Positions 28,250-38,223 of a stretch of 64,000 nt of DNA are shown piece by piece. This DNA is from Chryseobacterium gleum. Lineage in GTDB: Bacteria; Bacteroidota; Bacteroidia; Flavobacteriales_D; Sanyastnellaceae. Position numbers and translations under genes: made by a program. Position 1 is the stretch's first letter, and each line of letters opens with the position of its first letter. The stretch is from NCBI GenBank assembly GCA_945881835.1, contig CAMCVP010000001.1:62001-126000 (forward strand), read 5' to 3'. Under the pieces are notes generated by a model. That model had not been told where the DNA came from. It searched no databases and saw only the letters and a list, made by a program, of their open reading frames with translations.

Positions 28250-29518
28250 ATGAACGATCAAATTATTTTCGATTTAATTGAACGCGAAAGAGTTCGCCAG
28301 ACCAATGGCGTAGAGCTTATTGCTTCAGAGAATTACGTGAGCAATGAAGTTATGCAAGCAATGGGTTCTGTTCTTACGAATAAATACGCAGAAGGACTTC
28401 CAAAAAAACGATATTACGGCGGATGTGAAGTGGTAGATGAAGTAGAACAAATCGCTATTGACCGTTTGAAGCAATTGTTTGGAGCCTCTTGGGCGAATGT
28501 TCAACCACACAGCGGCGCGAATGCGAACAGTGCAGTGATGTTGGCCATTTTAAATCCAGGAGATGTTATTTTAGGTCTAGACTTGTCTCAAGGCGGACAC
28601 CTCACACACGGTTCTCCGGTAAATTACTCTGGTAAATTGTACCGTCCGTTTTTCTACGGAGTCGAAAAAGAGACTGGTCTTGTGGACATGAATAAGGTTC
28701 GTGAAAAAGCATTGGAGTGCAAACCGAAACTTCTTATTTGCGGAGCAAGTGCCTACAGCCGCGATTGGGATTATGCTGCTTTTCGTTCAATTGCCGACGA
28801 AGTGGGAGCAGTTTTAATGGCAGACATTTCGCACCCTGCAGGATTAATAGCAGCTGGGTTGTTGAATCATCCATTTCCGCATTGTCACATTGTTACTTCT
28901 ACCACGCACAAAACATTGCGCGGACCAAGAGGTGGTGTTATTATGGTTGGAAACGATATTCCGAATCCATTAGGGGTGAAAACCATGAAGGGAGAAATTC
29001 GTTCTCTTTCTTCTGTTCTCGATAGCGGTGTTTTTCCAGGAATGCAAGGTGGTCCTTTGGAACACGTTATTGCTGCGAAGGCAGTTGCTTTTAACGAGGC
29101 CATGACAGAGAATTTCAAAAAATATGGAAAACAGGTGATTGAAAATGCGAATGCGTTGGCCAATCATTTAACCGCAAAGGGTTATGAAATCGTTTCTGGC
29201 GGAACAGACAATCATTGCTTCCTTGTAGACCTTCGAAATAAAAATATATCTGGAAAAGATGCCGAACATGCTCTTGTGAGTGCTGAAATTACAGTAAACA
29301 AGAATATGGTCCCTTTCGATGATAAGTCACCTTTCGTTACAAGTGGAATTCGCATTGGAACGCCGGCCATTACAACGCGTGGTCTACAAGTGAGCGATAT
29401 GGAATTTGTTGCGAATGCCATCGATAGAGTAATTTCAAATGCATCGAACGAGGACGTTATTCGCGCTGTGAAAATGGAAGTACATGAGCAAATGTCAGCG
29501 CGTCCACTCTTCGCTTAA
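28250..29518 (+). CDS. glyA: Serine hydroxymethyltransferase
   Basis: 422 residues. PLP enzyme that converts serine and tetrahydrofolate to glycine and methylene-tetrahydrofolate. Visible family motifs are [21 protein letters not shown]-like [15 protein letters not shown], the N-terminal [14 protein letters not shown], and the PLP-lysine segment [28 protein letters not shown] and [13 protein letters not shown] are also typical. Length is as expected. The frame is open 10 codons further upstream, but the promoter position and family alignment favour ATG 28250. Its 3' end overlaps the convergent OstA-like gene by 24 bases. Confidence 0.97.
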
Positions 29519-31018
29519 GCGAATCAACTCAGCCTTAGAAATTGGCCTTTCCAAGTCCCTCCAGGTAAACCCTTCCAATTTGAATTGAGAGGGTTTTACT
29601 TTTTGAATGCTGTTGTAAAGACTGTTCGGTTCGTTTTCGAGTGTGACTTTCTGAATAGATTTTTCTTTCAATGCAATTCGAATATTCGAGCAATCTGTTC
29701 TGTTCAAACCAGTAAGTTTTGTTCGTTTGTTTTTCTCTTCAGTAGAGAAATAAGCGAGCTGTCCATTCCCATTGATTTTAACTTCATGAAGGTCGTTTTT
29801 AACGAATTGTCCATTCAGCGATTTTCCTTTTATTTGATTGAAATAACCAGGTACTACCTCATTGGCTAAAAAACTGTTTTCAGGAACGAAGAGGAAATCA
29901 AGCGAGTCGTTTTTGAAGTGAAGATTTATTTCAGTTCCGGTCAATTGATTGGCATCGTTCCACAACACGGGGTTGTAAAACATTCGCATGATTGAATCGC
30001 TTTCTGAAAGCGAGAGTGAATCGCATTTTCCTTGAAGATCTTTGCTGTAAAGTAGAACGTGATGATATGCTTTTATATCGCGATTCTCAGCACGTGTTTT
30101 TTTTGCGAATAACGTGTCGGCAACAATGAAAAGCGTGTCTTTATTTTCAAGTGTTTTTTCAAGAATACTTTTTCCGGTTACCCAAGAAATTTCTTTCAAT
30201 TCTTCGTGTCTTCCATAGTTACCGCGAATGGTTAAATCGGAGTTGTTGTCAACGATAATGACATTCTGAAAAGCCTCGCCCCATTTCTCTTTTCCATTGT
30301 AAAAAATACTGTCTCCAAAGAGCGTTTGTTCTTTCGATTTTACCTGAGCATTTTTCTTGAAGCTGCATGTCTCTGTTTTCGAATTGAAGTAGCCATTTTC
30401 ACACTTAATTTCTATGTCTTTTCCAGTGATTGTAGTGGGTCCAAAGAAGTAGGATATTTCAGTAGTTGTGTTGTAGAGCATTGTGTCTGAAACAACCGTG
30501 TAATCCTTGTTTTTAACGGTTACTTTTTTTCTGAACGTGAAGTTGTTTGATGGGCTGTGGTAGCGACCCGTTTGGGAAACTAATTCATTGTTGTTTTTGG
30601 TTGAAACAACTTTTCCTCCGCCTGAATAAGTTGCCACTTCAGACTTCATGTTGTAAGACATGTTTGGCGAAGTAAGTGTCATTGCGCCGTCTGAAAAAAC
30701 ACAGCTTTCGTTGAGTGTGGCGGATTGTGTTGCTTCTGTGAAAAATAGTTTCTTTCCAGAAATAGCATATTCACCCGGTTTGTTGACACGAATGTTTCCG
30801 AAAGCTTGAAAATTTCCGTTACTGAATTTATAGGCCGAATCACAATAGAAATTTGTGCCGTCGAAATTCAAATGCACGTTGCCAATAAGACGTTGGCCAT
30901 TGATTAAATTCTTATTGAATGCAATCTTATCTGCATGCACCAATTGCACGTGTTTGGCTTGTCCATTTATCTCCTGCGATATCAGAAAAACGGAAAGCGC
31001 AACAAGAGCTATTTTAAT
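29495..31018 (-). CDS. OstA/LptA-like exported protein, apparent ATT start
   Basis: About 507 residues from the ATT start. The mature part repeats short beta units ([72 protein letters not shown]) typical of OstA/LptA-like jelly-roll proteins that bind lipopolysaccharide in the periplasm; no LptD barrel follows. The first conventional start is GTG 30949, but the frame is open upstream and from ATT 31018 encodes a clean signal peptide, (M)[20 protein letters not shown]. There is no ATG, GTG or TTG between the in-frame stop and 30949. The gene follows purA by 22 bases and overlaps glyA at its end. Confidence 0.75.
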
Positions 31019-33733: not shown

Positions 33734-34315
33734 TTATTTACCTTGAGAAAGTTTCTCCATTTCTTTGTCGAAAGTTTCTTTGAATTTCTCGTAGTTGTAA
33801 TCGGCTTTCAATTTTTCGTTCTTAGACAAACCGCTTTGGTATGCATCTGCGATTGTGTTTCCGCTTAACTCAAGAGCAACGTAGCTTACGTATGTTCCAT
33901 CAGGACGTTGAGTTAACTTTTCGCAAATTTCGATACATCCACGAAGTTCTTGATCAACAACTGTACGAGCCATTTCGTTGAAAGACTCAGTAACTTCCTC
34001 TTTGTTGTTTACTTCAGTTGAGTTTACGTAGTTGTCACCAACAATTTTCATTGTAGCGCTGATTGTTTTTCCCATTTCAGACATTGCGTTAGAACGAGCT
34101 TTTTTCTTAGCAGTCTCGCGATCCATACTCTCACCTGTAGCAGTTGAGCGGAATGCATCTTTCGTGCTTTTGTATTCAGAGCCAGAGCAGTATTCGTTAA
34201 TGATTACTTCTCCTTTTGGGTCTGGAGTTTTTACTTCGTCTTTGTTCTTTTTACAAGACGGGATAGCAACCATTGTCATTGCAGCAATTGCCAAAAGGGT
34301 AAAACGTGTTTTCAT
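33734..34315 (-). CDS. Small LPP20-like lipoprotein
   Basis: 193 residues. A lipoprotein signal with lipobox Ile-Pro-Ser-Cys (MKTRFTLLAIAAMTMVAIPS then C). The mature part resembles the LPP20 fold: an early loop with CSGSEYKSTKDAFRSTATGE, then a long helix ETAKKKARSNAMSEMGKTIS, strands around ICEKLTQRPDGTYVSYVALE, and a charged helical tail. Two more Cys lie in RGCIEIC. It is the last gene of the DUF4476/CsgG/LPP20 operon, 49 bases after the previous gene. Function unknown; FlgP is the best-known LPP20 relative. Confidence 0.7.
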   Translation of the reverse strand: MKTRFTLLAIAAMTMVAIPSCKKNKDEVKTPDPKGEVIINEYCSGSEYKSTKDAFRSTATGESMDRETAKKKARSNAMSEMGKTISATMKIVGDNYVNSTEVNNKEEVTESFNEMARTVVDQELRGCIEICEKLTQRPDGTYVSYVALELSGNTIADAYQSGLSKNEKLKADYNYEKFKETFDKEMEKLSQGK

Positions 34316-34364
34316 TTTGATGAAGATATTAGTTGAATTGATGTTTTCAGTTATTATGCCAAAC

Positions 34365-35747
34365 TTACAAAATAATTTTAATTATTTCGCTTATGAGCGT
34401 TGACTCTAAGTTTTCTCGTTGTTTTTTATATGCTTCCAAGACTGCATTTTCATGAGAAAGTTGCACGCCCTTCACTCCATTGATGCTGTGTTCGAAAATG
34501 GCAACATTTGTTTTCGTGTTGTTCACAGTTATTTTTCCATCGATGTATGCAACTTTAAATCCTTGAATGTCTTCGCCGGCTCTTGGATTGGTGTTGATGT
34601 AAACAACATAATCTGCGTTGTTTTCATTGGTCGCAATTCTCATGCCTTTGCTGATTAGCGTGTTGCGAGTAATTTCTGCTAGTGTTGTTGTCTTGGTTCC
34701 GTCGAGTTTGAATTCATTCGAAGAAACGAAAAAGCTAGGAGCTAAAACTTCAATGGGTATTTTTCTTTGGTCCGTATTTATGCCGGCAATTAAAGCATTC
34801 GCCAAATCAGAGTCCAAATCTTGAGGAACCAAAGCGTCGATCACCAAACTTAATTCCAGTGAGTTGTTTTTTGCTTTGAGACTTACGTTGTCAATATCGG
34901 CAAGAATAATTCCGTCGTTATCAGACATCACTGTTTTGGGTTTCATGTAATTGTCTCTCTGATAAGCGTATTTCACATTGATGCCGCGCACGCCTTCACC
35001 TTTGTATGTTATCATTACGGGAACTTGCGTTTTGAAGGTGTTTGCCGATGAAAGCACAATGTTTTTTAGAGGAGTTTCGAATCGAAGGTCGGCAAGTACT
35101 GCGCGTATTTCAGAGAATAACTCGTTGTCTATGAAGATGTCATTCCCGTTTTCATCTTTCATCTGGTTTACTTCCGTCCAATATGGTTTCAAAGCGAACA
35201 AACCGTGGTAGAAAAGATCAATTGCCGAAGGAATGTTCCCCAACTTTTTGGCTTCTCTTCCTTTCTTTAAAAAATCTAAAGCCGAACGAAGCGTGTTTTC
35301 CTTTTTCTGCGCTTTTTTACTTTGGTAATCGAATTTGTTCAGCTTGTAATAAACGGCGTACAATTCTTTGTCTTCCCATATTCCGGCTACTTCGTAGTCT
35401 TCTAGCATTTCTGAAGAAGATGTTGTTACATTCGAACTGAAGCTTTCACTAAACGCTTTATTCACTTCCATGGTATTGAAGAATGTTTGTCCTTCAACCT
35501 TTACAGAGATTTCAGTTGCAAGGTCATTCAGCGCTAATTTTTTCGCGATGGCTTGATAATCCGCTGGCTGAGTCGTTTTAGAACACGTCGCAATTCCAAT
35601 GTAGTAGGAAGAATTAACAGGTCTCGTAGATACCCATTCTGGTTTAGGTTGGGGAGGAGGAACAACGGTTTTAACGGTGTCTTTGCCTCCACAAGCTGCG
35701 AGTAGAATTATTCCTAGGAATAGCGTGTATTTTGAAAGTAATTTCAT
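34365..35747 (-). CDS. LPP20-domain lipoprotein (FlgP-like N-terminal domain)
   Basis: 460 residues. Lipobox Leu-Ala-Ala-Cys after MKLLSKYTLFLGIIL. Residues about 35-160 show the LPP20 pattern: PEWVSTRPVNSSYYIGIATC, a helix with DYQAIAKKLALNDLATEISV, then the VEGQTFF, FSSNVTTSSSEMLEDYEVAGIW and YAVYYKLNK strands. A helical/TPR-like stretch (KKGREAKKLGNIPSAIDLFYHGLF) and a beta-rich region follow, with a last domain ending in a long helix. It starts within the TAATG overlap of the CsgG-like gene. Probably anchored at the outer membrane, periplasmic side. Confidence 0.78.
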   Translation of the reverse strand: MKLLSKYTLFLGIILLAACGGKDTVKTVVPPPQPKPEWVSTRPVNSSYYIGIATCSKTTQPADYQAIAKKLALNDLATEISVKVEGQTFFNTMEVNKAFSESFSSNVTTSSSEMLEDYEVAGIWEDKELYAVYYKLNKFDYQSKKAQKKENTLRSALDFLKKGREAKKLGNIPSAIDLFYHGLFALKPYWTEVNQMKDENGNDIFIDNELFSEIRAVLADLRFETPLKNIVLSSANTFKTQVPVMITYKGEGVRGINVKYAYQRDNYMKPKTVMSDNDGIILADIDNVSLKAKNNSLELSLVIDALVPQDLDSDLANALIAGINTDQRKIPIEVLAPSFFVSSNEFKLDGTKTTTLAEITRNTLISKGMRIATNENNADYVVYINTNPRAGEDIQGFKVAYIDGKITVNNTKTNVAIFEHSINGVKGVQLSHENAVLEAYKKQRENLESTLISEIIKIIL

Positions 35748-37117
35748 TAAGGAACGAGCGTTTGCATTTGAGTTTTGACGTTATCTGCAATTTTCTTGGC
35801 TATTTCAATATACAAGTCATTTGCTAGGTCGTTTCCATCGCGAAGGTTTCTGCGCGCACTTAACATATCTTTAAGCGTATTTCTGTCGCGATTGTTCATG
35901 TTTACAACATTGCCGTTAGCGGGATACAGATTGTTTGCATTTCCTCCGTAAATGGCATAAATAACTTCGTCTTTTTTCTTTTCAGTGAAGATGTCATTCT
36001 TAATTAACGACGCCGTTTCGATGGAAGTCATTTTGTATTGAATGGAAACGTTCGATTCAGCGTAGTTGTAATACTCATCGAATTGAATGGGTTTGTACTC
36101 GGTGTCGTAAAACGTTTTCCCCTCAGCGTTCACCTTTTTTACTTGATAAGATTCAAAACCATTGCGAGTGACCTTGCGAATTTGTCCGTTTTGAACGGTG
36201 TGATTCAGCACTGTTCCCGTGATAAGTGCTTTCGCACCAGAAATTTTTCCAATTTCAATAGCATTGGATTCAGAGAATATTCCGCTCATTTGAATGCGCT
36301 GTTCAGCAAGTATGTTGTTCAGGTTTTCTCTGTCAATGACTTGAAGAAAGGGGTCGTTTATTTGAGTTAAAGCATTTAAGATATAGGCAGTAGCTTTCGT
36401 ATCGCTTCCTTGCATGTTTGTGCCATTTGTGAAGGGCAGAAGGGCGATGGTGTATTTCCCTTTATCGAGACATTTCTTTTTGAGTTCCGCAGATTCTTTG
36501 TAGCCCAATTTACGCTCTTCAACTTTGATGAAGCTGTTGTAGGCTGAACGGTAATGTTTGGCTTCTAGTTCGGCAACACCTTTTTGATAGATTGGCTCGA
36601 GATAAGCGATGTCTTTCAACTCTCCTGCATCTTTGAAGTTCGGGTCGAGTCTGCTGATTTCATTGAAGCTAACTTCCGCGTCGGTAAATTTGTTTTCTTC
36701 AAGAAGCTTTGTTCCTTGCTCGTACAAATCATTCATATAAGATTTTTTCACCTTCTCAAAATCGCCTAAATAAAATTCAGGTATTTGAAGTTCAACGCCT
36801 ACTCCTTTGATCTTTGCTTGGTATTCACGAGCAGAAATAAATGAGTAAACGGCTTCCTTCTTGTTTCCAAAGCTGCTTTTCTGACTGAATTCACTGAGCA
36901 TGGCGTTTAGAACGGTTTGCCCTGTTTTCTTCATTCCTATCTGAGCGTCAATGTTCGCGCGCTTTTTCCATAAAGCGGTGTAGTAATTTTCAGATGCTTC
37001 TTTGTTCAGTCCTGCAGCTTCTTGTTTTTGGGCAAGTTTCGTATAGTGCTTGCTGTTCTGACAAGCCTGTGTCCCCAGCAGAAATACAACAGCGAAAAGG
37101 TAAAGCCAGTTTTTCAT
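35747..37117 (-). CDS. CsgG-like lipoprotein with N-terminal TPR-type repeats
   Basis: 456 residues. Lipobox Gly-Thr-Gln-Ala-Cys at about residue 19. The N-terminal half is helical and repeat-like (EAAGLNKEASENYYTALWKK, LLEENKFTDAEVSFNEISRL, LEAKHYRSAYNSFIKVEER). The C-terminal half begins YTIALLPFTNGTN and continues AYILNALTQ, LQVIDRENLNNILAEQRIQM, EIGKISGAKALITGTVLNH, the typical CsgG/FlgT-type order. CsgG forms outer-membrane pores for curli; relatives also sit under the outer membrane in flagellar rings. No curli genes are seen. Its partners here are two LPP20-like lipoproteins and a DUF4476 protein. Confidence 0.83.
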   Translation of the reverse strand: MKNWLYLFAVVFLLGTQACQNSKHYTKLAQKQEAAGLNKEASENYYTALWKKRANIDAQIGMKKTGQTVLNAMLSEFSQKSSFGNKKEAVYSFISAREYQAKIKGVGVELQIPEFYLGDFEKVKKSYMNDLYEQGTKLLEENKFTDAEVSFNEISRLDPNFKDAGELKDIAYLEPIYQKGVAELEAKHYRSAYNSFIKVEERKLGYKESAELKKKCLDKGKYTIALLPFTNGTNMQGSDTKATAYILNALTQINDPFLQVIDRENLNNILAEQRIQMSGIFSESNAIEIGKISGAKALITGTVLNHTVQNGQIRKVTRNGFESYQVKKVNAEGKTFYDTEYKPIQFDEYYNYAESNVSIQYKMTSIETASLIKNDIFTEKKKDEVIYAIYGGNANNLYPANGNVVNMNNRDRNTLKDMLSARRNLRDGNDLANDLYIEIAKKIADNVKTQMQTLVP

Positions 37118-37119
37118 AG

Positions 37120-38223
37120 TTATTTCGTTTCAATAAATTCATTCAATTCTTCCGTCGACGAGTCGAAACTGAATCCTTGACTAACATTGTAATAGTTGTT
37201 CTGATCGAAGCAATAGTCGTGTGCGTATTTCGCGAATTCCAGACGGCTTTCTTCGAAACCGAAAATTTTCATGACTTCAAGAATTTGATCAGTTGTTAGG
37301 CAGTTTGCTTTTGCTACTTGCTTCGCGGTAGAAAGTTTCGTGTCGTCGAATCCTTTGCTTGCAATGGTTTGTTTCGCCTTTCCGAAACTTGCAGCATCCA
37401 TGGAACGGGTGCAATTTCCATTTCCCACGATTGTTGCATTGGAAGGTTGAGTTTGTGTAGGTTCGCTTGGGCGAGTTGTGTGCGCTGGAACAGTTGAATT
37501 CGTTGTGGTTGAAGAAGATTTGGTTGTAGTCGTTGTTGTAGTACCTGATGTTTGGACATTCGTGTTTGGAACATTCATGTTGACTCCCATATTCATTCCA
37601 TCTACATTGATGTTCATGCCAACGTTTCCGCCGGTTGCGTTGCCAGATTCGTCCAGGTTTATATTTATACCCATGTTAACTCCGTCTACATTGACATTCA
37701 TACCAAGGTTCCCGCCGTTATTCGGTGTGGTGTTCGTTCCGTTTACAGTTGTTGTGGTTGTTGTTTTAGAACTACCACTCACTGAGGTGTTATTGTTGGT
37801 TTGAGTTTGAGTTGCATTTGTCGGAGCGTCGTCAACAACTGCGAAATCTTTCACGTCATTGTTAACAGGTGAAGTGTTCGTTGCTGTTGAGGAAACGGGG
37901 TTTTCGGTATAAAAACGAAGAACGTACTCTCCTTTTTTGTTTTTCTTCACTTGGTAAGTCACTTCCATTCCTTGATGAAGAGCGAAGTTGTTGTTTGAGA
38001 AATCTGCAAGTGTAGCGTCTTGAAAGTCAACACGCGCTTGGTAAAATTCTGAAGTGAGGTTCTGTAATTTAATGTTTGACTGGGGGGCGCTATTCATTGC
38101 TTCACCGTTCAAGTATAGGGTGAATTTTTCGCCAGCCTCTGAATAAATCACTGCGTTCATTTGAGCGCTAGAGCTGAAAAATAAAAATAGACAAACAGTA
38201 AATAGGGTAAGGTTTTTCATCAT
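37120..38223 (-). CDS. DUF4476 exported protein with Asn/Thr-rich linker
   Basis: 367 residues, signal peptide MMKNLTLFTVCLFLFFSSSA. An N-terminal beta domain (about 20-115: FTLYLNGEAMNSAPQSNIKL, VDFQDATLADFSNNN) is followed by a low-complexity linker rich in Asn, Thr and Gly with a 28-residue repeat (MNVNVDGVNMGINI and MNINVDGMNMGVNM). The C-terminal DUF4476 domain (about 275-350) shows MDAASFGKAKQTIASKGFDD, KANCLTTDQILEVMKIFGFE and RLEFAKYAHDYC. It is the first gene of the operon and lies 2 bases before the CsgG-like gene. A degenerate -7 TAAATTTA is at 38245-38252. Confidence 0.8.
   Translation of the reverse strand: MMKNLTLFTVCLFLFFSSSAQMNAVIYSEAGEKFTLYLNGEAMNSAPQSNIKLQNLTSEFYQARVDFQDATLADFSNNNFALHQGMEVTYQVKKNKKGEYVLRFYTENPVSSTATNTSPVNNDVKDFAVVDDAPTNATQTQTNNNTSVSGSSKTTTTTTVNGTNTTPNNGGNLGMNVNVDGVNMGININLDESGNATGGNVGMNINVDGMNMGVNMNVPNTNVQTSGTTTTTTTKSSSTTTNSTVPAHTTRPSEPTQTQPSNATIVGNGNCTRSMDAASFGKAKQTIASKGFDDTKLSTAKQVAKANCLTTDQILEVMKIFGFEESRLEFAKYAHDYCFDQNNYYNVSQGFSFDSSTEELNEFIETK
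37586..37717 (-). repeat. Two-copy 84-base direct repeat inside the DUF4476 gene
   Basis: The stretches 37586-37633 and 37670-37717 are similar over 48 bases and offset by exactly 84 bases (28 codons). They encode the two MN(V/I)NVDG(V/M)NMG(I/V)N(I/M) segments of the linker. The third positions have diverged, so the duplication is not recent. Confidence 0.75.

Follow-up and report, generated by a model that had tools for sequence, protein, structure and literature searches.

RESULTS

A four-gene operon encodes exported envelope proteins

The window, by which we mean the whole stretch of 64,000 nucleotides that was analyzed, comes from a genome assembly of 2.53 Mb in 38 contigs. On its minus strand, four closely spaced genes encode, in order, a DUF4476 protein (38223-37120, 367 amino acids), a CsgG-like TPR lipoprotein (37117-35747, 456 amino acids), a long LPP20 lipoprotein (35747-34365, 460 amino acids), and a short LPP20-like lipoprotein (34315-33734, 193 amino acids). 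The open reading frame coordinates leave a 2-base gap, a 1-base overlap, and a 49-base gap between successive genes, reproducing the positions and spacings reported in a first-pass annotation of this DNA. That annotation had also proposed that the genes form a single operon closed by a strong terminator, and both proposals were borne out. On the minus strand at 33718-33695 lies an intrinsic-terminator-like hairpin with a 10-pair stem, a 4-base loop, and a T run, which is the longest stem in the region. In the region as a whole, neither terminator-like nor promoter-like sites are more numerous than shuffled sequence would give. Sequence and homolog alignments agree with the earlier assignment of export signals to all four products and lipobox cysteines to three. 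Of the family names given at that time, DUF4476, CsgG, and LPP20 hold for genes one to three. Gene four resembles LPP20 only below the Pfam cutoff, so that its assignment is weaker than the title of that annotation suggests. An OstA-like LPS transport protein is encoded near the operon (window 29498-30949), and its relatives, one of them an LptD_2 match, are found near the three lipoprotein genes (here the trio) in several other genera.

The DUF4476 protein

Alignments indicate that the head protein consists of a signal peptide, which reads as an ordinary one, a conserved N-terminal beta-like domain, a T/N/G-rich linker, and a C-terminal DUF4476 domain at residues 275-364 (PF14771, E = 3.3e-20, 72.6 bits against a cutoff of 22.5). 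Its linker contains a repeat, NVDGVNMG, at residues about 172-215, and the copy number varies among close relatives (L007:4799-5995). The gene is adjacent to and upstream of the CsgG-like gene, at the operon head, in 24 of 47 genomes. One locus (L072) encodes a single protein of 499 amino acids in which an LPP20 domain is fused to a DUF4476 domain, and this suggests that DUF4476 is functionally tied to an LPP20 partner. The DUF4476 profile had no convincing match in the PDB, and in the literature searched DUF4476 was named in a single paper, on animal ciliary bands.

The CsgG-like TPR lipoprotein

The second protein has a lipid-anchor cysteine, C19, that is invariant in all 36 homologs, followed by TPR-type helices (about 25-220) and a CsgG-like domain (about 217-456). 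The CsgG match lies above the curated Pfam cutoff in the window protein (PF03783, E = 2.7e-9) and is present in all 36 homologs; TPR families were matched in up to 24 of these. A weak LpoB match was found in 26 of the 36 family members. In the window protein this match falls below both the Pfam cutoff (E = 7.7e-4, 19.8 bits against 22.3) and the NCBIfam cutoff (15.4 against 110.55), and a direct comparison with Escherichia coli LpoB found almost no similarity. Classification of the protein as LpoB was therefore rejected.

When the CsgG-like domain is aligned with E. coli CsgG, two additional segments fall at the positions of the CsgG membrane hairpins. Both are polar and charged, with 29% and 25% charged residues against 17% and 23% in CsgG, and their alternation is weaker overall, in a crude comparison that sets a family average against a single CsgG sequence. 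For the window sequence alone, the peak moment of the first insert (0.60) lies between those of the two CsgG hairpins (0.77 and 0.51). The second insert reads as a loop plus a helix. Because both membrane-hairpin positions are polar, the pore assembly considered in the first-pass annotation is not supported.

A second TPR-CsgG-like protein, 23% identical to the first, is encoded at G000:C3:157702-159015 (L002, L077) as a solitary gene without LPP20 partners. Its counterparts in related genomes (L078, L080, and L081) lie near a gene for a giant protein of about 2000 amino acids, and the one giant protein scanned, that of L078, contains many HYR-like domains.

The long and short LPP20 lipoproteins

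The long protein matches LPP20 above the Pfam cutoff (PF02169, E = 1.3e-7, 32.4 bits against 25.9). The LPP20 match is present in all 36 of its homologs, and its anchor cysteine, C19, is invariant in 36 of 36. An LPP20/SHS2-like domain at residues 36-133 is followed by a helical segment and by segments that, in the alignment, look like an Ig-like and a C-terminal alpha/beta segment. Its profile matches PDB 4KZS (E = 4.9e-5), an LPP20-family protein that we take to be HP1454 of Helicobacter pylori.

The short protein is the most highly conserved of the four. It scores below the Pfam cutoff for LPP20 (PF02169, E = 0.0054, 17.6 bits against 25.9), and 13 of its 33 homologs match at E values up to 0.01. 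Profile-profile comparison aligned it to the LPP20 region of the long protein with a probability of 91.6, and its profile found no match in the PDB. Its anchor cysteine, C21, is invariant in 33 of 33 homologs. A short LPP20-like paralog is encoded outside the operon (G000:C6:11020-11550; L101:6024-6567) and has counterparts in most trio-positive genomes. Elsewhere, one protein (L079:7318-9225) combines an LPP20 domain with an ARPP-1 domain (PF20208, 2.2e-61).

Acidic residues after the lipobox cysteine are a known surface-export signal in Bacteroidota. None of the 105 aligned lipoproteins of the three families has a pair of acidic residues directly following the cysteine, so that export of these lipoproteins to the cell surface appears unlikely.

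Structure prediction

AlphaFold models of the CsgG-like and long LPP20 proteins, made with alignments of close relatives only, had mean pLDDT values of 51 and 40, respectively. The TPR helices are their sole confident part; a low-confidence model places two long strands at the first CsgG-hairpin position. In Foldseek searches with these models, the top matches were only of the TPR type and none had an E value below 0.001. With so shallow an alignment, the prediction was not informative.

The trio recurs across the order

Among 120 genomes sampled from the order to which the window belongs, 47 contain the CsgG-like gene and 48 the long LPP20 gene; the short gene was likewise found in 48, of which 2 have it only at distant places. 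By the positions in the search tables, the long LPP20 gene adjoins the CsgG-like gene in all 47 genomes, and the short gene lies within 5 kb of the CsgG-like gene in 45 of 47. With start codons called mechanically at 34 loci read over their full length, the median spacing is -4 bases between the CsgG-like and long LPP20 genes, like an ATGA overlap, and 53 bases between the long and short LPP20 genes. The trio spans six families, and the neighborhood thus recurs far outside close relatives. Since identity to the two long proteins of the window is only about 18-51% outside the genus, it is selection, rather than recency, that maintains the gene order. At 28 of 35 loci, a saccharopine-dehydrogenase-like gene is found in divergent orientation, an arrangement indicative of vertical descent at a stable place.

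The closest relatives are seven database contigs with CsgG-like proteins 88-93% identical to that of the window, four of them titled as Flavobacteriales metagenome-assembled genomes, and all seven keep the neighborhood within the DNA compared. Two records titled Chryseobacterium gleum (L005 and L006) encode proteins 92-93% identical to those of the window genome and are probably mislabeled metagenome-assembled genomes. In several genera, a large protein is encoded directly 3' of the trio (L047:11651-14191); the scanned member, that of L047, has a T9SS sorting tail (PF18962), and the family is also found 3' of the trio in L048, L049, L050, L053 (farther away), L056, L075, and L076.

LPP20 genes in other families and their neighbors

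In family f19 (L082-L084), which belongs to the same class, long and short LPP20 genes occur together, at about 350 and 260 bits, with no CsgG-like gene beside them, in a search that scored the best five candidates per genome. This suggests that the complex is not strictly three-part. In family f34, a minimal CsgG domain is encoded beside a long LPP20 gene (L087). In family f41, ortholog-grade LPP20 genes (305-339 bits) follow an MltC-like lytic transglycosylase gene (L085) or an SH3-M48 protease gene (L086). Transglycosylases also neighbor more distantly related LPP20 pairs in f34 (L094, L099) and f61 (L100), an SLT protein is encoded a few genes from LPP20 relatives in f26 (L115), and an LPP20 relative lies beside an SH3-M48 protease in L117. 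These neighbors, which come from inspection of selected loci and not from a controlled count, point to peptidoglycan when taken together with the weak LpoB matches. A family of 495-524 amino acids is also encoded alongside LPP20 genes in other Bacteroidota (L104, L105, L117, L118, and L119). It weakly resembles the N terminus of MltC-like transglycosylases, and the two members scanned had no Pfam match.

Comparison with known systems

The first-pass annotation had seen no flagellar or curli gene here, and this extends to the whole genome for the markers searched. CsgF (PF10614), the one curli partner searched, is absent from the genome, with a positive E. coli control; FlgH (PF02107), the one flagellar marker searched, is likewise absent, with positive controls. 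By the features tested, the four-gene set is neither a curli system, which was rejected on the absence of csgF and the polar inserts, nor a flagellar ring, which was rejected on the absence of flgH.

The CsgG-like protein shares with E. coli CsgG the CsgG Pfam domain, a lipobox cysteine, and insertions at equivalent positions, but differs in its N-terminal TPR region, the polarity of its inserts, its LPP20 partners, and the absence of csgF. LpoP is a TPR outer-membrane lipoprotein that activates PBP1B, and LpoB is an outer-membrane lipoprotein with a TolB-like domain that activates a PBP (PMC7267771). The window protein combines the TolB/CsgG-like domain of the latter with the TPR of the former, whereas its similarity to LpoB is below the cutoff, its partner synthase is only putative, and the E. 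coli lpoB operon, unlike that of the window, has no LPP20 partners.

The suspected kinship of the LPP20 proteins with flagellar ring proteins is backed by the literature. FlgP, Lpp20, and FlgT have a common SHS2-like fold, both FlgP and FlgT form rings, and those of FlgP are concentric (PMC12222027). The set resembles FlgO/FlgP/FlgT in the LPP20/SHS2-like fold of the family, in consisting of outer-membrane lipoproteins, and in possible oligomerization; it differs in that flgH is absent and FlgT-domain matches are only subthreshold. In H. pylori, HP1454 and HP1456 (Lpp20) are encoded in the same operon and interact with FlgP and the ring protein FapH (PMC11756786). The window operon shares with that pair the LPP20 domain and the presence of more than one LPP20-type protein. 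It differs in the Ig-like and alpha/beta segments of its long protein, in the coupling of this protein to a TPR-CsgG-like partner, and in the lack of flgH from the genome.

DISCUSSION

CsgG-like and LPP20 lipoproteins are familiar from curli pores and flagellar rings. Our results demonstrate that the lipoprotein set described here is real and strongly conserved. Its domains are known, and the set itself is apparently undescribed in the literature searched, where no paper that mentions CsgG and LPP20 together was found. A TPR/LpoB/LPP20 gene set may exist in Proteobacteria; a literature search by COG numbers found nothing on it.

It is likely that the conserved lipoproteins form a complex. We tentatively favor, with a probability of about 0.38, a periplasm-facing outer-membrane lipoprotein complex that scaffolds or regulates the peptidoglycan machinery much as Lpo activators do. 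The operon would produce a stoichiometric complex whose three lipoproteins have their lipid anchors in the outer membrane, on its inner leaflet. Their LPP20 domains would oligomerize into a patch or ring, and the TPR and CsgG/LpoB-type domains would extend toward the peptidoglycan, where cell wall enzymes may be scaffolded or regulated. The DUF4476 protein would be an accessory subunit, dispensable or fusible. The complex is suggested by the pairing in 47 of 47 genomes with its median 4-base overlap, by the invariant anchor cysteines and the lack of an acidic surface-export motif in every homolog, by the LPP20-DUF4476 fusion of L072, and by the absence of csgF and flgH from the genome. We infer Lpo-like working of the CsgG-like protein from the weak LpoB match in 26 of 36 members, the LpoP/LpoB precedents (PMC7267771), and the transglycosylases or SH3-M48 proteases adjoining LPP20 relatives in other Bacteroidota families. 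Several results argue against this reading: within the order of the window, no peptidoglycan enzyme is encoded in or adjoining the operon; the LpoB match of the window protein is below the cutoff, and its comparison with E. coli LpoB is almost empty; the AlphaFold models are all of low confidence; many of the transglycosylase-linked LPP20 genes are of paralog grade; and the LPP20 pair of f19 has no CsgG-like gene beside it.

Peptidoglycan-linked scaffolding thus ranks first among the readings considered, a mechanical ring second, and a pore last. The ring would be a nonflagellar ring or lattice beneath the outer membrane, comparable to the FlgP basal disk, in which LPP20/SHS2-like subunits polymerize, the CsgG-like protein caps or nucleates them, and the role is mechanical stabilization of the outer membrane without control of enzymes. 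The SHS2-like fold common to LPP20, FlgP, and FlgT, the rings formed by the latter two, and the match of the long LPP20 profile to HP1454 (4KZS), with its FlgP and FapH interactions, are consistent with this, as is a conserved, coupled set of two LPP20-type subunits and one CsgG-like protein. We nevertheless consider it somewhat doubtful, as FlgP ring formation needs a beta-hairpin insert whose presence here would be hypothetical, AlphaFold yielded no confident model, and flgH is absent, hence no flagellum to ring. An unlikely reading is that the set is some other factor in outer-membrane biogenesis or trafficking, handling, for example, lipoproteins, lipopolysaccharide, or T9SS substrates. 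In several genera, a gene of the OstA or LptD type is found within a few kilobases, and in others the next gene downstream encodes a T9SS-sorted protein, but these neighbors vary by lineage while the core is constant. Very improbable is a CsgG-type secretion pore for fiber-like or other unfolded proteins. The CsgG match in all 36 homologs, the insertions at both hairpin positions, and the two long strands modeled with low confidence at the first would fit such a pore, but the inserts are polar and more highly charged than in CsgG, the second reads as a loop plus helix, csgF is absent, and the operon holds no other gene of a CsgG system.

A bolder reading, which we regard as improbable at present, is a heteromeric, nonflagellar, and noncurli lattice or ring of LPP20 and CsgG/LpoB-type lipoproteins beneath the outer membrane of Bacteroidota, which would include DUF4476 as a subunit and connect the peptidoglycan machinery with the outer membrane. 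If this is true, the flagellar FlgP and FlgT rings would represent specializations within a wider class of envelope scaffold. That CsgG-like and LPP20 lipoproteins are tightly coupled in a genome lacking the tested markers of flagella and curli suggests that an envelope complex of a more general kind is built from these folds. DUF4476 gains a defined set of partners, and the set as a whole is a testable candidate for a link between the outer membrane and the cell wall in some Bacteroidota.
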